Origin: Methanoplanus endosymbiosus
GTDB taxonomy: Archaea > Halobacteriota > Methanomicrobia > Methanomicrobiales > Methanomicrobiaceae
Assembly: GCF_024662215.1 (NCBI RefSeq)
Contig: NZ_CP096115.1
Coordinates: 682,001 to 746,000 of the forward strand
DNA length: 64,000 nucleotides
Direction: 5' to 3'
The notes beneath the pieces are model-generated. The model did no database searches, was not told where the DNA came from, and worked only from the letters and a program-made list of their open reading frames with translations. Of this stretch, positions 49,469 through 59,729 are shown piece by piece. The first letter of the stretch is position 1, and each line of letters begins with the position of its first letter. Position numbers and translations under genes: made by a program.

Positions 49469-52400
49469 ATGAAACGGGGTGTTCTCATAATTAATGTTTT
49501 GGCCATTGTTGAGCAGAATGAGATATTTAACGAAGTTCTGTCAATAATTAAGAGAATAACAGATATAACAGTAAAACCGGTAACAGATTCAGAACTGATT
49601 AAATTATCAGCCGGCAGCAACTCTTCAGATCTTATCTGTGATGCCGCAGTTATCTGTAAATCTATAATAGACAGAGAGACAGACCAGATCATTAATAATA
49701 TAGCGGAATTGTTGCCCGACATCCCGATTATACTTATCACAGACGGAAATGAAGAAGAGAACAGAGAAGAAGAACTGTTAAACAATATTGATCTTTATAT
49801 CGAATACACCTCCGGAAATGAGAAAGATAGAGATTTTTTAGCCGGAAGAATCATTAATTTTTTAAGAACAATAGTTACAGAAAGAGAGAAAGAATACATA
49901 AAAGATCTCTCCTTAATCCTCAATCTCATGCCCGGATTTTCATGTATTATAAGACCGGATATGTCCATCTATCTGGCAAATGATGAATTTATCCGGATAT
50001 TTGGGGAACCGGACGACCGTACATACTCTGAATTAACCGGATGTCTAACAGCAGATTCATATAACTGCCCGGTATATGAAGTCTTAAAGACAAAAGAAGA
50101 GCAGTCTTCGAGATGGACAAAGGATGACGGAAGAATTTATTCTGTACATGACAACCTGATAAAAGGGCCGGCAGGCGGGGAGATGGTAATTGAGCTTGGC
50201 CTTGACATTACTAAGAGAGTTAATGCAGAAGAAAAAGCCGGAGCCTTCTCAAAAAAATTAAAAGAGCAGATAAATATAATCAATAAAAGTAAGGTGATAA
50301 TCTACCTGCAGAATAGAGATGGACAGCAGAATACAGAACTGATCAGTGATAATATATCGCAATTCGGATATTCTCCGGATGACTTCACATCCGGAAATCT
50401 AAACTATACATCCCTGATTCATCCGGATGACCTGCCGGTGGTTACTGATAACATTACAAAGAATATAATTTCCGGCAATGAAGAGTTTATCCTTAATTAC
50501 AGGATTTATGACATCAATAATAATATCAGATTTATTGAAGATCATGTATTCACAATATATGACAATAGCGGGAAACTGACACACCTTCAGGGTATTATTA
50601 TTGACATAACAGAAAAGAAAAGATCTGAAGATACCATAAGAATATTTAAAACAGTTTCAGATAATGCAAATTATGGCATTGCAATTGCAGACTTAAACGG
50701 CATACTGACCTATACAAACAGATGGTTTGCAGATCTGCACGGATACAGTCAGGAGGAGTTAAGCGGAAAACCAATTAATTTTCTGCACTCCGGAGAAGAG
50801 ATTGGCTATGTAAATACACTGCTGGATCTACTGAAGGAAGAAGGGCATTTTGAAGATAAAGAGGTCTGGCACAGGCACAAAAGCGGCAGAGTATTTCTGA
50901 CAAGGATGAATGCAAATATCATCTCAGATAAAAATAACAATCCCTTATATCTCTCAACAACACTATCCGACATTACTGAAGAGAAAGAAAAAGAGAGAAT
51001 TATCCGGGATAATGAAGAAAAAATCCGGCTAAAACTTGAAAGTATTCTCTCTCCCGATTACAACATAAAAGAAGAAGAATTAAGGAATATTATAAACACC
51101 AAAGAGATACAGTCACTGATGGATGACTTTTACAGAATTACAGATGTCGGAATTGCAATTCTGGATATAAAGGGCAATATTCTTGTTGCGGCCGGATGGC
51201 AGGAGATATGCACAAAATTTCATCGTATCAATCCTGAAACAAAGAAAAACTGTACTGAAAGCGATTTGGAACTGACAACGGATATAAAACCCGGAGAGAT
51301 CAGGCAGTATAAATGCAAAAATAATCTCTGGGATATTGCAACACCAATTTATATCGCCGGCAGGCACATGGGAAATATGTACCTGGGTCAGTTCTTCTAT
51401 GAAGATGAAATTCCGGATTACTCAGTCTTTGAGAAGCAGGCAGAAATTTACGGTTTTGACAGGACAAAATATCTTGCAGCACTGGAGAAGGTACCCCATT
51501 TTAACAGGGAGAAAATCAGGAATATAATGTCATTTTATAAAAAATTTGCACTGATGATCTCAAAGCTGAGCTACAGCAATATTAAGCTTGCAAGACTCCT
51601 TATTGAACATAAAGAGACAGAAAAAAGGCTTAAATCATCTGAAGAAAAATACCGCAGCTATATTGACAGATCTCCGGAAGGGATCTTTGTTGCAGATGAG
51701 CAGGGCCGTTACGTTGAAGTTAATAAAGCAGCCTGTGAAATGCTTGGATATACCGAAGATGAACTTCTCACAATGTCAATCCCGGAACTTGTAATTAAAG
51801 AAGAATCTGACAAAGCACTTGAATATTTTGAGAAACTAAAAGAGAGACATCAGTATATTAATGAAATTAACCTTAGAAGGAAAGACAATTCCGCATGCCC
51901 GGTAATAATCAGTACAACGGTACTGCCGGACAGGAAATATCTTGCATTTTCAACCGATATAACTAACAGAAAAGAGGCCGAATCTAAAATATCCCAGTTA
52001 AACCGCCTGCTTGGCGCAATCAGAAATATAAACCGTTTAATTGTGGGAGAGAAGAGCAGAGAGAAACTTATTGAAAAGACATGCAGAATACTGACTGATA
52101 ACGGCGGATACACCAATGCCTGGATTATTTTACTTGACAAAAATAAAAAAGTTATATATTCAGCACAGTCAAATCCGGATAAGAGTAATAATCCCTTCAA
52201 AAAATATATTGAAGAAGGAAATATTCCCGGTTGTGCAGAAAAAGCCATAAAATCCGGTGAAATAACTGTCATATCAGTAAATCATGAAAACTGTGGTGAC
52301 TGCCCCCTCTCTGACAGTTCCAAACGGATTAACCGCCTGACCGGAAACCTGAAATATAAGGATAAACTGTTCGGAGTAATTTCAATATCAATTCCGGACG

Positions 52401-54523
52401 GAAAAATTCCGGATGGTGAGGAGTATAACCTTTTTTCAGAAGTATCAGGCGATCTTGGATTTGCACTTAATAGTATTGAACTTGAGGAAGAACGCCTCAT
52501 TCAGGAAACAGAAATATTAGAGATTAACAAAAGGCTGACAATTGCATATAAAGAGCTTGAAGAGAATGAGGAAGAATTAAGGCAAAGTTATAATGAAATT
52601 CTTGAGAGCCAGGAAAAACTGCGTGAGAGTGAAAACAGGCTTTCAAATATAATAAATTTCCTTCCGGATGCAACTTTTGCCATTGATAAAGAAGGCAGGG
52701 TTATCACATGGAATAAGGCAATGGAAAAAATGACCGGCATTTCTGCATCAGAAATAATTGGAAAGGGAAATTATGAATATTCAATGAAGGTATATGGCAA
52801 AAGAAGACCCTTACTAATAGATTTTATTCTCAACGATAAGCTAAAAAAAGAGATTAATTATCCGGTATTATATGAAGAGGGAAATAAACTGATAGCAGAG
52901 AATTATGTGCCCTATCTTGCAGAAGGAAAGGGAGCATATATCTGGTTTACCGCATCACCCCTTTATGATTCAGAAAAAAATATTGTCGGCGCTATAGAAT
53001 CAATGAGAGATATAAGCGAGGTTAAATCTGCGGAAGAAAAGATTGTTCAGACATCCTTTGAATTATCCGAAAGAGTCAAGGAACTAACTGCATTAAAAGA
53101 TCTCTCTGATCTCATGATTAAGAAACCGGACGAAGATGAATTTTTTAATACAGCAGCCAGTATCATAAAAAATGCCATGCAGTATCCTGAGTCCACCGGT
53201 GTTTTAATTGAAACGGATGGGAAAAGATATCAGACAGAAGGATTTTATGAGACTGATATTGCAATAAAAAATGATTTTTACTCAGATTATATAAAAGAAG
53301 GCAGTATAACTGTCTGTTACCTCAACCATTCTCCAAACGGGTATTTGGGAGAATTTCTGAACGAAGAAAAAGATCTTCTTGGAATTATCTGTGAGAGAAT
53401 AGAAAATTATATTGACAGAAAAAATACAGAGATTGATCTGAAGAACAGCGAGGAGAGATTCAGGGAACTGTTCAACAATATGAGCAGTGGTGTTTCAGTA
53501 TATGAGGTGACTGATAACGGGAGCAACTTTATTTTTAAAGATATTAATAAAGCATCTGAAGAGATCGACAGTATCAGAAGAGATAATGTAATAAACAGAA
53601 GCATTTATGATATATTTCCCGGTGCTGAGAAATTCGGACTCATTGATATACTAAAAAGGGTCTGGAAAACAGGAAAACCTGAGCATTATCAGTTAAGCGA
53701 ATATAAAGATGAGAGAATTCACGGGTGGAGAGAGAATTTCATATACAGGCTTCCTTCCGGAGAAGTTGTTACAGTTTATAATGACCTGACTGATAAGAAG
53801 AGAGCAGAAGACGCATTAAAAAAGAGCGAACGGAAATATCATGAATTATTCAACAATATAAATGAGGCAGTATTTCTCCATAAGATCAAACAGGATAACG
53901 AACCGGGTAATTTTGTTGAGGTCAATGATATTGCCTGTCATCGTCTGGGCTACACAAGGGAAGAACTCTTAAAACTTTCAATCGCAGCCATTAACAGTAA
54001 TAATGTAAATAAAGAGGAACCGGAAATAATAAACACTCTTAAGAAGAACGAACAGATCTCCTTTGAAGCCGAACATAAAAGAAAAGATGGATCAACCTTT
54101 CCGGTCCATGTCAAGGCAAGAATGATTGAACTGGGTGAACACCAATATGTTATTTCACTTGCCCGGGACATCACTGAAGAAAAAGAGGCAAGAATACGTG
54201 AAAATACCGCCCTTCATCAGATTGAAGAAAATATAGCACAACTTGCAATATTAAATGATAAGATCAGAAATCCGCTTACAATAATAATCGGCCTTGCAGA
54301 TTTAGGGGGAGAAATATTTAAGGATAAAATTATTGAACAGTCTATGGAAATTAATGATATAATTACACGCCTTGATCGTGGATGGCTTGAATCTGCCAAA
54401 ATAAGGGATTATCTGACAAAACACCACGGTATAGAATCAGAAAATGATAAAAATAATAAAAACCGGAGACTGAAAGAGAATATGAGAATAAATGAGATAA
54501 TTTCAGATATAACTGATAAGTGA
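49469..54523 (+). CDS. Giant multi-PAS/PocR/GAF sensor without kinase ATPase domain
   Basis: The 1,684-residue soluble protein starts with a receiver-like domain lacking clear phosphorylation residues (about 1-130). PAS domains lie at about 140-265, 285-385 and 390-505. A PocR sensory domain follows (about 525-705), then PAS (720-835), GAF (845-1010, with a CGDCPLS cysteine pair), a coiled coil, PAS (1050-1190), a degenerate GAF-like part, and two more PAS (about 1320-1440 and 1445-1575). It ends with a dimerisation-helix-like tail in which the phosphoacceptor His is replaced (NDKIRNPLTIIIGLADLG). No HATPase domain follows. It should sense several ligands but cannot phosphorylate alone. Its 3' end overlaps the receiver gene tail to tail by 21 nt. 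Confidence 0.85.
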   Translation: MKRGVLIINVLAIVEQNEIFNEVLSIIKRITDITVKPVTDSELIKLSAGSNSSDLICDAAVICKSIIDRETDQIINNIAELLPDIPIILITDGNEEENREEELLNNIDLYIEYTSGNEKDRDFLAGRIINFLRTIVTEREKEYIKDLSLILNLMPGFSCIIRPDMSIYLANDEFIRIFGEPDDRTYSELTGCLTADSYNCPVYEVLKTKEEQSSRWTKDDGRIYSVHDNLIKGPAGGEMVIELGLDITKRVNAEEKAGAFSKKLKEQINIINKSKVIIYLQNRDGQQNTELISDNISQFGYSPDDFTSGNLNYTSLIHPDDLPVVTDNITKNIISGNEEFILNYRIYDINNNIRFIEDHVFTIYDNSGKLTHLQGIIIDITEKKRSEDTIRIFKTVSDNANYGIAIADLNGILTYTNRWFADLHGYSQEELSGKPINFLHSGEEIGYVNTLLDLLKEEGHFEDKEVWHRHKSGRVFLTRMNANIISDKNNNPLYLSTTLSDITEEKEKERIIRDNEEKIRLKLESILSPDYNIKEEELRNIINTKEIQSLMDDFYRITDVGIAILDIKGNILVAAGWQEICTKFHRINPETKKNCTESDLELTTDIKPGEIRQYKCKNNLWDIATPIYIAGRHMGNMYLGQFFYEDEIPDYSVFEKQAEIYGFDRTKYLAALEKVPHFNREKIRNIMSFYKKFALMISKLSYSNIKLARLLIEHKETEKRLKSSEEKYRSYIDRSPEGIFVADEQGRYVEVNKAACEMLGYTEDELLTMSIPELVIKEESDKALEYFEKLKERHQYINEINLRRKDNSACPVIISTTVLPDRKYLAFSTDITNRKEAESKISQLNRLLGAIRNINRLIVGEKSREKLIEKTCRILTDNGGYTNAWIILLDKNKKVIYSAQSNPDKSNNPFKKYIEEGNIPGCAEKAIKSGEITVISVNHENCGDCPLSDSSKRINRLTGNLKYKDKLFGVISISIPDGKIPDGEEYNLFSEVSGDLGFALNSIELEEERLIQETEILEINKRLTIAYKELEENEEELRQSYNEILESQEKLRESENRLSNIINFLPDATFAIDKEGRVITWNKAMEKMTGISASEIIGKGNYEYSMKVYGKRRPLLIDFILNDKLKKEINYPVLYEEGNKLIAENYVPYLAEGKGAYIWFTASPLYDSEKNIVGAIESMRDISEVKSAEEKIVQTSFELSERVKELTALKDLSDLMIKKPDEDEFFNTAASIIKNAMQYPESTGVLIETDGKRYQTEGFYETDIAIKNDFYSDYIKEGSITVCYLNHSPNGYLGEFLNEEKDLLGIICERIENYIDRKNTEIDLKNSEERFRELFNNMSSGVSVYEVTDNGSNFIFKDINKASEEIDSIRRDNVINRSIYDIFPGAEKFGLIDILKRVWKTGKPEHYQLSEYKDERIHGWRENFIYRLPSGEVVTVYNDLTDKKRAEDALKKSERKYHELFNNINEAVFLHKIKQDNEPGNFVEVNDIACHRLGYTREELLKLSIAAINSNNVNKEEPEIINTLKKNEQISFEAEHKRKDGSTFPVHVKARMIELGEHQYVISLARDITEEKEARIRENTALHQIEENIAQLAILNDKIRNPLTIIIGLADLGGEIFKDKIIEQSMEINDIITRLDRGWLESAKIRDYLTKHHGIESENDKNNKNRRLKENMRINEIISDITDK

Positions 54524-55156
54524 AGCCGGAATATATTCTTCAATATCAAACTCTGTTACCTTTTCTATAAATTTTTGTTGCAAAGCATCAAAATGACTGT
54601 TTAACTTTTCAATATCGGCATCCAAATCATTATCGGTTCTTTCTGAATTATCTTTTAAATTAACATCAATGAGCTTATCAGTCATCTTTCTGAAAAAAAG
54701 CATATCTTCGGCAGTTTTTCCAACATCCAGAGCTATTTCATAATCAGACGTTTTTAATGCTGTTTCCTTAATAAATATATCAATCTCTTCTTTCTCTTTA
54801 AAAAATGAATTGATACATTTAATGAGACTTTCAACCTTCAGAGGTTTTTTAATGTAACCGCTGATCATGCCACCGTACTGAAAAATATCATCAGGTAAAA
54901 GTTTTTTTGCAGTCATCATTATTACAGGTATATCTGAAATTTCAGAATCGGCCCTGATATAATCCAGAGTTTCCCAGCCATCCATAACAGGCATTATGAT
55001 ATCAAGAAGAATTAAATCTGTTTTGACTGACTTAAGCTGCTCTATACCTTTTAATCCGGAAATTGAATTATATACACTGTAGCCCTCATTTTCGAGAACT
55101 TCAGCGAATATATTATTGATTAGTTCCATATCATCGATTATAAGTATCGTTTTCAT
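54503..55156 (-). CDS. Response regulator receiver protein with extra helical C-terminus
   Basis: From the ATG at 55156 the receiver domain (about 1-120) has the acidic pair (ILIIDDMEL), the phospho-acceptor Asp (DLILLDIIMPVMDGWETL), Thr (VIMMTAKKL) and Lys (YIKKPLKV). The C-terminal about 95 residues are charged helices (IEKLNSHFDALQQKFIEKV), not a known DNA-binding output. The 11-residue longer frame from 55186 is less likely. The gene is convergent with the giant sensor and divergent from the membrane PAS protein. It could be a relay between sensors and the complete kinase at 57486; this is inferred. Confidence 0.88.
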   Translation of the reverse strand: MKTILIIDDMELINNIFAEVLENEGYSVYNSISGLKGIEQLKSVKTDLILLDIIMPVMDGWETLDYIRADSEISDIPVIMMTAKKLLPDDIFQYGGMISGYIKKPLKVESLIKCINSFFKEKEEIDIFIKETALKTSDYEIALDVGKTAEDMLFFRKMTDKLIDVNLKDNSERTDNDLDADIEKLNSHFDALQQKFIEKVTEFDIEEYIPASLISYI

Positions 55157-55383
55157 GACCGGATTCCGTATAAATAGATCAAACATTATACTCAGTGTTG
55201 AGACATAAATGTTGATTCCAAATAATAAATAACAAATTTATTCTCAAAGTAAATAAGTATTCTGAATTGTATTTATATGTACAACTGAATAATTATCTCA
55301 ATTTAGATGTAATTAATATTAATGTCTGAAAGAAAATCTAAAATTCAAAAATACATTTATACTTGTAAAAAAAACCAGAGAAT

Positions 55384-56673
55384 ATGAAATTACTGACAAA
55401 TAATAAATTATTCATAGATACAATTCTCATCTTTTCAGTCCTGATAACAGTAATAATTACATGGTACTGCCTTCAGAATCAGATACTCAATGTTTTTCCG
55501 CATATATACTATATCCCTGTAATATTATCTGCCTATATCTACCGGAAATACGGAATGATACTGATATCAGGTCTCTGCATATATTACATTACAGCTGTTG
55601 GATTTTTTTATTTCACGGATTTTACAGTTATGATGTCTGCGGTAATACGGGTCCTTGCATATATTCTGATTGGCTATATAATAATCATTCTTGCTGAAAG
55701 AATAGAGGACGAACGTAAGATATTTCATAAAACATTTGAATACTCAAAATGCGGTCTTGCACTCATATCTCCGGATTTAAAGATCCTGGTTATGAATCCG
55801 GAAATGGAAAATATCTCAGGATATACAAATTATACTGAAAAAAAACTTGAAATAAAAGATCTCTTCAGCGATAAAAATTATAACGAAATAGACAGCTGTG
55901 TCGAAGGTAAAAAAGAATTCTGCTACAGGGAAGTAATTTTAAAATCCAAAAGCGGTGAGGATAAAACTGTCATAGTTAATTTTACAGATTTAACAGAGAA
56001 AAATCTGATATTACTCTCATTAACAGACATTACAAAAAGAGTTGAAGCGGAATATAAGATCAAATCTTCAGAGATGAAATTTAGGACACTGTGGGAGAAT
56101 ATATCCGCAGGAATGATTATCATTGATGAAAAAACACATGAGATCATATCTGCCAATCCGGAGATAAACAGGCTGAGTGGATATGATAAAGAAGAAATTG
56201 AAGGTCAGATCTGTCATAATTTCATCTGCCCAAATAAAGCGGGCAAATGCCCCATATCAGATCTGAAGCAGGACGTAAATCATACAGAAACAATACTGAT
56301 TACAAAGAATAAAGACAGAATTCCGGTACTAAAATCCGCTGCCATTGCTGAAATTGATGATAAAAAGGTTATCATTGAAAATATAATAGATATCAGAAAA
56401 CAGAAAGAGGCCGAACTTGATCTATTATCATATGTACGTGAGACGGCACTCAGAATTAAAAATCCTGTTGATATAGTGAAGCAGTATCTGATTGATCTTA
56501 TCTGCGAACTTAAAGAAGAGCAGGAGATTGACAGAGAAGATTTAATAATACAGCTATCAGTACAGATCTATAACCTCAGGGTAATAAAAGACAACCTTTC
56601 TGATATGGACAGAGCAATTGCAGAGAACAGAAAGGAAATTCCGGATGCATTCAGAGAATACCTTACAAAATAA
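55384..56673 (+). CDS. Membrane PAS sensor lacking kinase ATPase domain
   Basis: An N-terminal block of about four transmembrane helices (residues about 8-105) is followed by two PAS domains (about 115-225 and 230-345), the second with a Cys-rich insert (CHNFICPNKAGKCP) like cluster- or metal-binding PAS insertions. The tail (about 350-429) aligns with a dimerisation helix pair, but the His box is replaced (ETALRIKNPVDIVKQY) and no HATPase follows. Protein length 429. Its 3' end overlaps or abuts the next gene, a Walker-less RecA-fold protein, so they are probably one operon. This is the same kinase-less type as the giant sensor. Confidence 0.82.
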   Translation: MKLLTNNKLFIDTILIFSVLITVIITWYCLQNQILNVFPHIYYIPVILSAYIYRKYGMILISGLCIYYITAVGFFYFTDFTVMMSAVIRVLAYILIGYIIIILAERIEDERKIFHKTFEYSKCGLALISPDLKILVMNPEMENISGYTNYTEKKLEIKDLFSDKNYNEIDSCVEGKKEFCYREVILKSKSGEDKTVIVNFTDLTEKNLILLSLTDITKRVEAEYKIKSSEMKFRTLWENISAGMIIIDEKTHEIISANPEINRLSGYDKEEIEGQICHNFICPNKAGKCPISDLKQDVNHTETILITKNKDRIPVLKSAAIAEIDDKKVIIENIIDIRKQKEAELDLLSYVRETALRIKNPVDIVKQYLIDLICELKEEQEIDREDLIIQLSVQIYNLRVIKDNLSDMDRAIAENRKEIPDAFREYLTK

Positions 56674-57259
56674 CCAGTTTATGGAAAAAATAAATATTTT
56701 CCCGGATGATAATCCGGGGATAATGCTTGCATTTATAACGCCGGAGAATATGAGAGATACAACGATATATCTGGTGAAAAAAGCCTCAGAAATAGCAGAT
56801 CAGATCATATATCTCTCAGTTAATCAGCCAGCACCTTACCTTAATAAACAATTTAAAAAATCCGGAATTGATGTTTCAAAAATATATTATATTGACACAA
56901 TTACAAAATATGCCATAGGTAAACCACCTGATGATTTTGATCAGGGTACATTCTTAAATACACCATCTGATCTGACGGGCATGAGTGTTGCAATATCTGA
57001 GTGCATAAAAGAATACAATAAAGGAAAGGTGGTTGTGTGCCTGGATTCAGTTAATGCAATGCTTATTCATATGCCTTCCAAGAGTGTATCAAAATTCATA
57101 CATTTTATAACGTCAAAGATGAAGGTATTAAATATTTCAGGAATATACTTCGCCATTGAAGAAGGGCTTGATCCTGTAATTATCTCTCAGCTGACCGTAT
57201 TTTCAGATTCAATATTCAAAACCGGAAATCTGCCGGAAAGTCCTGAAAACACGGATTAA
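56645..57259 (+). CDS. RecA/KaiC-fold protein without Walker A
   Basis: The product of about 204 residues has alternating strands and helices like RAD55/KaiC-type ATPases: IMLAFITPENMRDTTIYLVK where a P-loop would be, the strand QIIYLSVNQPAPYLNKQF, a Walker-B-like KVVVCLDSVNAML and GIYFAIEEGLDPVIISQL. The P-loop Gly and Lys residues are missing, so ATP binding is doubtful. Starts at 56645 (AGGA 8 nt upstream, 29-nt overlap with the previous gene) and 56681 (8 nt after its stop) are possible. Related archaeal proteins often occur with PAS sensors. I infer a signalling adaptor. Confidence 0.65.
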   Translation: MHSENTLQNNQFMEKINIFPDDNPGIMLAFITPENMRDTTIYLVKKASEIADQIIYLSVNQPAPYLNKQFKKSGIDVSKIYYIDTITKYAIGKPPDDFDQGTFLNTPSDLTGMSVAISECIKEYNKGKVVVCLDSVNAMLIHMPSKSVSKFIHFITSKMKVLNISGIYFAIEEGLDPVIISQLTVFSDSIFKTGNLPESPENTD

Positions 57260-57351
57260 CTGCAATGCAGGCAGACAGACCATTTCTGTTCAGAACCATA
57301 AATCAGGGACAGATTATTCAGAAGAGATCTTTTCAATGAATCCGGATATAT

Positions 57352-57408
57352 AAAGTCATTCATAAACCCGCGGGTTCACAGATGGCAGATGAAACAAATG
57401 TTTCATAG
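57352..57408. repeat. 57-bp two-hairpin repeat, copy B
   Basis: Near-identical to 32574-32630 (53 of 57). Here hairpin 1 is a 12-bp perfect palindrome AACCCGCGGGTT and hairpin 2 is ATGAAAC-AAAT-GTTTCAT. It lies in the 226-bp convergent gap between the RecA-fold gene and the MASE3 kinase, with no ORF using it. Confidence 0.8.
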
Positions 57409-57485
57409 AAGATTCACGATCATAATATGCAGATGCACAATCAGATAATAACCAGGTTATCTGACCGGAGATTTAGATTAACTGT

Positions 57486-59729
57486 TCATCTCTCTGAAAA
57501 GCGGAAATATTCTTTTGGAATATAAATCTCAAACTTTGCACCTTCACCATAAATGCCCGTCTCCTTTATTGTAATTTCAGTGATTGACAGTATTTCTACA
57601 GATAAAAAGAGTCCAAAGCCGGTATTCTGATAATATTGTCTCTTAAAGATCTTCTCTTTTACATCCGGAGGAACACCCACGCCATCGTCCTGACATACAA
57701 AGACAAGTTTATCCGGCATCACTTCATATGAAAATGAAATGGTGGTTATCTTTTCGCCATATTTTACTGCATTGTCAAAGAGATTATAGATAACTTTTTC
57801 AAAGAGCGGATCTGCAAATATCTCAAGGTTATTGACCGGATTTACAGTCTGAAGATCACTGAATGACTTTATCCGGGAAATTTTCCGGATGATAAAACCA
57901 ACATTCTGCCAGTGCGGGGATGAAGCACCGAGATTACTGTAATCCCTTGTGAAGAGTATCTGTTTTTCAACAATATCCACCGAAGAGACGACATTTTTAA
58001 GATATTCAGAGGTTTTTGTGCCGGCAGGAATCTCATTACGATCTCCAATCAGTTCAAGATATCCTTCAATTGCTGTAAGCTGATTTAAGACATCATGTCT
58101 GGTAATGCCGCTCAGGAGGTTTAGTTTCTTATTTATCTCCTGTAAAGCTTTTTCTGCTGCTTTCTGTTCTGTTACATCCTGCAATGCACCGGAAACTTTT
58201 ATGGTTATGCCATTTTTATCCATAATGCGTTCAGCCACAGATTTAATAATCTTCTGAGGACTGCCGTCTGCCGGATTAATTACAAATTCAAGGTTGTATT
58301 CCTTACCACTCTTTATAAGATCCACCAATGCCTGATGAACTTTATCTCTTTCAGGAATACATGCTTCAATATCCTCAATTGGAAATATATTTCCTTCCGG
58401 AGGATTATAGCCATAAATTCTGAATCCCTCATCAGACCCCCAGATTTCACCGGATGCAGTATTATACTCCCAACTGCCTGTGTGACTGATCTCCTGTGTC
58501 TTACTTAACCTCTCTTTTTCAACAGCAATCTGATTCTCATATTTAATCCTGTCAGTAATATCCTCCCCTGAACTGAGTGTACCGATAATTATTCCCCCAT
58601 TATCTCTTAAAATACGGTTATGCCAGAGAATAGTTCTTAACTCTCCGGTTTTTGTGACAATCTCATTCTCATAGGATTCAGTGAATTTTTCATCACCGGA
58701 GATATTCATTCTGCGTAATGAATTTACTTTTCCTTTCTCCTCTTCCGTTACAAAATTCTCCACCCATTTCTTTCCGACAATATACTCTCTCTCATAGCCA
58801 AGTATCTCACATCCTTTTGGGTTGATAAGTTTTACAAAACCGTCTGTATCAAGGATTAGAAATATCACTCCGGCCACATTGATATACAGGTCCAGCATAT
58901 CCCTCTCTTTTCTGACCTCAGTCTCTTTCTGACTGAGTGACCGAAATATTGTCTCATATGGCCGCCTGATGCCTGAATCCACAATTGCATAATATATAAG
59001 GGCAAATTCAGTAATTTTAAACAGATGTCCGATAAGGTTTGAAAAGCCATAGACACTGATATAGAAGGTAAATGCAATCTCAGAGAGAATTGTAAATATT
59101 ATTGAGAGGATTATCAGATTATAGACTTTCCGTTCAAAATGCTCTCTTTTCCGGAATAAAAAATATATTGAGATGAAGAGCATAATTGAAATGAGGTATT
59201 CACTGTAGATTTTAAAGCCGGTGAGACCTTTTCCCTCAATGTAGCAGTCCGGAAAAAAGCCTGAAAATATTGAGATGATCAGAAATACTGTAATAAAGGA
59301 ATAAATTATTATTTCAGACGATACATTCGTTTTTTTATGCATCAGAAGAGGAGCAGCAATCAGTGTTGCTGCCTGCATATATCTTGAAGCAATCCATAAC
59401 TCTGTCGGCAGGTTGGCACCATATCCGGTAAAAATATTCATGCCTTTGTATGCAAGGGTATGCAGAAAGTCAATACTGCCGATGAAGAGAAATGCAATTC
59501 CTAAAAAAAGCAGGTAATAATTTGTGATATAATCCCGGCTGTTCCATGCTATTATAAAAATTATTGCTGCTATTACAATACTGAACAATTCAGTTACTGT
59601 ATGAAAAAGCAGATAGCTGTACAGTGATGAGAGAGTAAAAAATGTCAGAATCAGGACAAGAGCAACTAAAAACGATATATCATTTTTATTATGCAGAAAT
59701 TTTGTACTGATATTAATTGCTCCACCCAT
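57486..59729 (-). CDS. Histidine kinase with MASE3 membrane sensor and two PAS domains
   Basis: Residues about 10-255 form a MASE3 sensor (GSIDFLHTLAYKGMNIFTGY, then WIASRYMQAATLIAAPLLM). Two PAS domains follow (about 270-385 and 395-520). The phosphoacceptor box is SGITRHDVLNQLTAIEGYLE (near 535). The HATPase domain (about 620-745) has N box LFDNAVKYGE, G1 CQDDGVGVP and G2 NTGFGLFLSVEIL. It is thus a complete kinase, similar in its C-terminus to the 7TM kinase at 11281-13374. It is the only kinase with an ATPase domain in the 49-60 kb signalling cluster, so it may serve the receiver protein and the kinase-less sensors. Confidence 0.9.
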   Translation of the reverse strand: MGGAINISTKFLHNKNDISFLVALVLILTFFTLSSLYSYLLFHTVTELFSIVIAAIIFIIAWNSRDYITNYYLLFLGIAFLFIGSIDFLHTLAYKGMNIFTGYGANLPTELWIASRYMQAATLIAAPLLMHKKTNVSSEIIIYSFITVFLIISIFSGFFPDCYIEGKGLTGFKIYSEYLISIMLFISIYFLFRKREHFERKVYNLIILSIIFTILSEIAFTFYISVYGFSNLIGHLFKITEFALIYYAIVDSGIRRPYETIFRSLSQKETEVRKERDMLDLYINVAGVIFLILDTDGFVKLINPKGCEILGYEREYIVGKKWVENFVTEEEKGKVNSLRRMNISGDEKFTESYENEIVTKTGELRTILWHNRILRDNGGIIIGTLSSGEDITDRIKYENQIAVEKERLSKTQEISHTGSWEYNTASGEIWGSDEGFRIYGYNPPEGNIFPIEDIEACIPERDKVHQALVDLIKSGKEYNLEFVINPADGSPQKIIKSVAERIMDKNGITIKVSGALQDVTEQKAAEKALQEINKKLNLLSGITRHDVLNQLTAIEGYLELIGDRNEIPAGTKTSEYLKNVVSSVDIVEKQILFTRDYSNLGASSPHWQNVGFIIRKISRIKSFSDLQTVNPVNNLEIFADPLFEKVIYNLFDNAVKYGEKITTISFSYEVMPDKLVFVCQDDGVGVPPDVKEKIFKRQYYQNTGFGLFLSVEILSITEITIKETGIYGEGAKFEIYIPKEYFRFSER

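Follow-up and report, generated by a model that had tools for sequence, protein, structure and literature searches.

A kinase-less sensor and a KaiC-like protein without a P-loop form a recurrent gene pair in Methanomicrobiales

Results

The analysed window, a 64,000-nucleotide stretch of the Methanoplanus endosymbiosus genome (NZ_CP096115.1, positions 682,001 to 746,000), carries a signalling locus of five genes (Table 1). Two of them are the subject of this study: a membrane sensor of 429 amino acids (aa) ending in a helical hairpin, named TAIL_B, and the protein encoded directly downstream, RecAl, with a predicted KaiC/RecA fold. Only 7 nucleotides separate the stop codon of the sensor gene from the ATG of RecAl. 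The mechanically called open reading frame of RecAl has a TTG start at 56618 and runs into the sensor gene. The ATG is the more likely start, in agreement with the starts of homologues. A preliminary description of this DNA had listed the same five genes, and all of them were located in the window. Named homologues agree with a position of the genome in the Methanomicrobiales.

Table 1. Coordinates of the sensor-RecAl module, its neighbours in the window and a paralogous gene run in the same genome.
Feature	Position	Strand	Description
Sensor of the module	55384..56673	+	429 aa; ~4 transmembrane helices, two PAS domains, C-terminal TAIL_B
TAIL_B hairpin within the 429-aa sensor	56407..56670	+	E-x3-R-x3-P; lacks a phospho-acceptor His and is not followed by an ATPase domain
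RecAl	56681..57259	+	192 aa; predicted KaiC/RecA fold without P-loop, DUF7504-like
Multi-PAS/PocR sensor	49469..54523	+	1684 aa, C-terminal TAIL_A; neighbour, outside the recurrent module
Receiver	54503..55186	-	Phospho-Asp present, genus-restricted helical tail; neighbour
MASE3-PAS-PAS histidine kinase	57486..59729	-	Complete; neighbour
Gene run STAS, RsbT-like, HATPase-PP2C, coiled coil-TAIL_B, RecAl	L099:5358-8240 (G000:C1 ~1012.4-1015.2 kb)		Own genome

RecAl and TAIL_B genes number exactly seven each in the genome, and every one of them belongs to an adjacent pair. Over all loci of the Methanomicrobiales, TAIL_B is located directly upstream of 156 of the 165 distinct core-family RecAl genes, and the spacing in relatives is mostly within 30 nucleotides. 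The order is swapped for at least two of the nine other RecAl genes (L192, L374), with RecAl followed by a GAF sensor with TAIL_B; the overlap of the two genes in L192 is 4 nucleotides. The remaining RecAl genes have partial tails or are solitary. With more than 150 recurrences, the pairing is beyond chance. Core RecAl is present in 100 of 232 genomes and in 23 of 40 genera of the order. Of 60 relatives, 31 carry both RecAl and TAIL_B (threshold 60 bits) and one carries TAIL_B without RecAl; presence or absence agrees in 59 of 60 cases (Fisher p ~3e-16, inflated by shared ancestry). The absences are spread over six families. A few weaker TAIL_B matches, with 27-60 bits, also exist in these relatives.

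The input part of the paired sensors varies (PAS, receiver, membrane, GAF or none recognised), while the TAIL_B-RecAl pair is constant. Receivers of REC-TAIL_B proteins retain the phospho-Asp, and a gene run at L059:5180-10048 encodes CheY, CheC, a PAS-TAIL_B sensor and RecAl. Phosphorylation can thus be an input of the module. The L059 run directly precedes porB/porA/porC-like genes for a 2-oxoacid:ferredoxin oxidoreductase, and similar arrangements are present in L039 and L092.

TAIL_B comprises 87 residues, and its motif is near-invariant; the helices were predicted by AlphaFold2 (AF2) on a homologue at L184. With the TAIL_B proline set on the HisKA proline, the histidine position is mostly occupied by hydrophobic residues. 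In the ungapped BLAST register with a bacterial kinase (L293), it is occupied by a conserved glutamate (149 of 154 tails; histidine in two). In both plausible registers, 152 of 154 tails lack a histidine at the acceptor position. A HATPase_c domain was found in neither the 429-aa nor the 1684-aa sensor. This bears out the earlier claim that both PAS sensors of the locus are devoid of a phospho-acceptor histidine and of an ATPase domain.

RecAl exceeds the cut-off of the Pfam family DUF7504 (PF24336; 34.5 bits, cut-off 27), as do all seven copies of the genome, and all 32 aligned RecAl members match this family. The literature searched does not mention DUF7504. The match to KaiC (PF06745) has 24.9 bits, below the cut-off of 26.6, and begins at profile position 39; weak Pfam similarity to DUF835 and DUF7090 was also detected. 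A sequence search of solved structures in the PDB yielded zero relatives of RecAl. Alignment of the RecAl profile with active KaiC from neighbouring loci was not significant (hhalign E 0.03), and the fold claim therefore rests on the comparison of the AF2 model with the PDB and on Pfam. The model, based on 61 sequences, has a predicted local distance difference test score (pLDDT) of 90.6 and a predicted template modelling score (pTM) of 0.87. Its top structural match is PH0284 (2dr3; Z 15.6, root-mean-square deviation 2.8, 175 aligned residues). Further matches are KaiC (Z ~15) and Elp456 (4a8j, Z 14.9).

The Walker A motif G-x4-G-K-[ST] is present in 0 of 165 RecAl family members. Only two residues lie between the first strand (14-18) and the first helix (21-38) of the model, hence the P-loop is deleted and not merely mutated. 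The preliminary description of a RecA/KaiC fold without Walker A agrees with these results. Invariant residues include N48, D72, G80, P95, T99, D122, S123, F139 and H141, which indicates strong selection on some site of RecAl.

Genomes of the f9 family, which is probably Archaeoglobi, encode a RecAl relative whose operon includes three further KaiC-type proteins; two of these have Walker A and one lacks it. This suggests an origin of RecAl as one subunit of a KaiC assembly that mixed active and inactive members. The four-paralog operon at L151:6389-9184, with two members with and two without Walker A including the RecAl relative, is kept in many f9 genomes. At L088:6271-10006, the gene of a DUF7504 protein adjoins one for a fusion of a KaiC-like domain with a small GTPase, and a FeoB-like gene of 616 aa lies next to them; the gene order is similar in L086, L087 and L089.

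One RecAl pair in each of four methanogen genomes (G000, G001, G032 and G042) comes after genes for STAS, an RsbT-like ATPase and HATPase-PP2C. A Pfam run on the G000 copy identified the sensor of these operons as coiled coil plus TAIL_B only. The same operon slot encodes a coiled coil with a complete histidine kinase in a Variovorax plasmid (L293) and in L381, from another genome of the phylum of M. endosymbiosus that is probably haloarchaeal. The TAIL_B and kinase versions of the slot protein can be aligned along the coiled coil and onward into the first helix of the bundle (BLASTP E 5e-12). The operons show directly that TAIL_B and RecAl occupy the place of the kinase core in the four methanogens, and the two may do the same job. 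Other rsbT operons with a histidine kinase have been described (PMC12143880). Around the pair of the window there are no STAS, RsbT-like or HATPase-PP2C genes; they are present for the paralogous pair at L099.

A complex of the two proteins was modelled as a read-through product. The L184 genes are in frame, and reading the stop codon as glycine yields one chain; the alignment comprised 12 in-frame pairs plus unpaired rows. AF2 modelled the chain with pLDDT 85.9 and pTM 0.84 across a disordered linker (88-107, pLDDT <50). For freely moving halves, a pTM of ~0.6-0.7 is expected, an estimate made from the part sizes and not computed. A physical TAIL_B-RecAl complex is predicted by this model, which lends it indirect support; a complex prediction of sensor tails with the RecA-fold protein had been suggested as a check in the preliminary description.

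The 1684-aa sensor, the receiver and the MASE3 kinase are outside the module. The large sensor has multiple PAS domains and a PocR domain overlooked in the preliminary description. Its C-terminal TAIL_A scores 15 bits to HisKA, below the cut-off. An aspartate replaces the phospho-acceptor histidine (LNDKIRNPL), and no ATPase follows. TAIL_A is related to the DHp of local kinases (hhalign E 2.5e-6). Its family, with the motif LND[HEQK]IRNPL, has 14 members in the genome (54215-54520 in the window and 13 more), is present in all 30 relatives searched and is more numerous than TAIL_B. A single family of TAIL_A and TAIL_B was considered and is unsupported, the alignment covering 27 columns only (hhalign E 0.0036). 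The genome has a TAIL_A gene within four genes of RecAl at one of the seven loci, the one in the window. The orthologue of the large sensor in a congener (L100) opens with a receiver-like domain. In the window, the corresponding N-terminus (49469-49900) matches no Pfam receiver model and is probably degenerate.

The earlier guess that the RecA-fold protein is a partner of the orphan dimerisation helices is well supported for one sensor. The 429-aa sensor is backed by adjacency, swapped gene order, near-perfect co-occurrence, kinase replacement and the read-through model; the 1684-aa sensor drops out, with a tail of another family and TAIL_A near one of seven RecAl loci.

The receiver was correctly described as having a helical tail: its phospho-Asp is intact, and the tail of ~90 aa is restricted to two congeneric genomes (2 of 60). 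The kinase is likewise as complete as it had been described. In L070, too, the genes flanking a TAIL_B-RecAl pair include a MASE3 kinase and a receiver. Complete kinases are encoded within two genes of the pair at 12 of 77 loci, and they are enriched near pairs (16 of 257 vs 13 of 696 genes, Fisher p 0.001). They may feed the TAIL_B-RecAl module without belonging to it, the MASE3 kinase being a possible phosphorylation source for nearby receivers. Apart from the window, the full five-gene set was found only in the congener (L100), in the same order.

Discussion

The 429-aa sensor and RecAl are likely one copy of a two-gene, non-catalytic signalling module of the Methanomicrobiales, in which TAIL_B switches RecAl. 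The sensor would dimerise and receive input via PAS, GAF or membrane parts or, in other copies, by receiver phosphorylation. A conformational change may then pass into the C-terminal TAIL_B hairpin, which would be placed like the phospho-acceptor bundle of a histidine kinase and be unable to accept phosphate. TAIL_B would bind RecAl, as in the predicted complex. RecAl is probably not an ATPase because the P-loop is lost. It may be a switchable docking or adaptor subunit, with its conformation or availability as the output. This output could be the joining of other KaiC-family ATPases, which are proposed as partners because of the KaiC-paralog operon of family f9.

Several observations weigh against this interpretation. 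The invariant polar residues N48, D72, T99, D122 and H141 of RecAl could represent a retained ligand or catalytic site. The homology of TAIL_B to DHp is unproven, as the profile alignment was not significant (hhalign E 0.04); weak HisKA matches occurred in 8 of 36 TAIL_B sequences. RecAl is solitary in L355, L235, L047 and L112, and at least 15 of ~93 TAIL_B genes (at least 60 bits, 60 genomes) have no adjacent RecAl. The read-through model joined the proteins covalently, used 12 paired rows and no non-cognate control, and provides confidence scores only. In a direct-coupling analysis of the 156 pairs (effective number of sequences 91), couplings between the proteins were as strong as those within them and the shuffled null ignores ancestry; the analysis did not separate contact from shared ancestry.

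The conserved residues open the way to a different role, in which RecAl is catalytically active, depends on a nucleotide and stands in for the GHKL ATPase, for instance as an atypical P-loop-less kinase of TAIL_B or of another target. The Walker-B-type DS (D122) and the residues D72, T99 and H141 do not vary across a highly diverse set of members, and in the STAS-RsbT-PP2C operons TAIL_B with RecAl replaces the core of a histidine kinase. We consider such an enzyme unlikely, given a family devoid of Walker A, a model with the P-loop deleted and a TAIL_B without a conserved phospho-acceptor histidine. The unpaired genes could alternatively signify mere co-transcription: RecAl would work with other KaiC-family proteins, as its f9 relatives in the four-paralog operon do not have a TAIL_B, and adjacency would reflect co-inheritance of an operon without a complex. 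There is a small chance of this. RecAl has been kept with its partner gene through the expansion to seven paralogs, the exchange of neighbours and the reversal of gene order, it persists in 23 genera of the order, and the pTM of the read-through model argues for contact.

The preliminary description had proposed a modular system of all five genes. Spelled out, this would have the MASE3 kinase pass phosphate to the tailed receiver, with RecAl and the two kinase-less sensors joined in one phosphorelay hub. The conserved order of the five genes in the congener, the enrichment of kinases near pairs and the flanking genes in L070 are in agreement with such a hub. It is nevertheless very improbable: the set is confined to the genus, the receiver tail to two of 60 genomes, 65 of 77 pair loci are without a kinase within two genes and the tail of the 1684-aa sensor is from a different family. 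Homologous clusters lacking these neighbours had been named in advance as the finding that would speak against the five-gene system. Outside the genus they do lack them, so the proposal fails; neighbourhood and receiver-tail distribution rule out a conserved five-gene unit beyond the genus.

The two-gene module has relatives among known systems. The Elongator subcomplex Elp4/5/6 also employs the RecA fold as a scaffold, and Elp456 is not known to carry ATPase motifs. Its pathway is unrelated, however, and the PDB search gave no sequence link to RecAl. Archaeal inactivated KaiC (iKaiC) domains are known as output domains, including DUF835, MEDS and HalOD1-iKaiC (Galperin et al. 2018, PMC5847659), and a KaiC hub has been proposed (Makarova et al. 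2017, as cited in PMC5847659). Like these domains, RecAl is KaiC-related, without ATPase signature and tied to PAS or receiver inputs, the association with signalling domains being through gene adjacency. The described cases are fusions with PAS or REC, whereas RecAl is a separate gene in all 156 pairs, next to a dedicated sensor tail. Nonenzymatic histidine kinase-like proteins with HisKA and no HATPase are described for Methanomicrobia and Archaeoglobi (PMC5847659). They share sensor domains and a C-terminal dimerisation-type domain without ATPase with the sensors studied here. TAIL_A, which is related to DHp, fits best; for TAIL_B the relation is unproven. They are described as keeping the histidine, in contrast to TAIL_A with its aspartate and TAIL_B without any acceptor. 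No partner protein was proposed for them in that study.

Stressosome/RsbT modules control histidine kinases via a coiled coil (PMC12143880, citing Heinz et al. 2022). The order of STAS, RsbT-like, HATPase-PP2C and coiled-coil protein is the same in L099 and L293. The difference is the exchange of the kinase core for TAIL_B and RecAl in the four methanogen genomes; the copy in the window is without Rsb genes.

The coupling of archaeal sensors to inactivated KaiC domains is known. In the present pair the two parts are separate proteins, and the sensor carries a dedicated helical tail that lacks the histidine. Kinase-less histidine kinase-like proteins and inactivated KaiC domains are treated separately in PMC5847659, with interaction partners unknown there. 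The partner now predicted for one class of kinase-less sensors is specific and is in its own right an inactivated KaiC, and a single genome can hold up to seven such pairs in parallel. The pairing is directly testable with small soluble proteins. Tentatively, and with more doubt than for the module itself, the pair may represent a further signalling core of prokaryotes: a dimerisation helix would non-covalently switch a dedicated pseudo-KaiC and could stand in for an entire histidine kinase core, and RecAl would regulate assemblies of KaiC-family ATPases. If this is true, archaea could swap phosphotransfer for conformational coupling and a histidine kinase core for a pseudo-ATPase.

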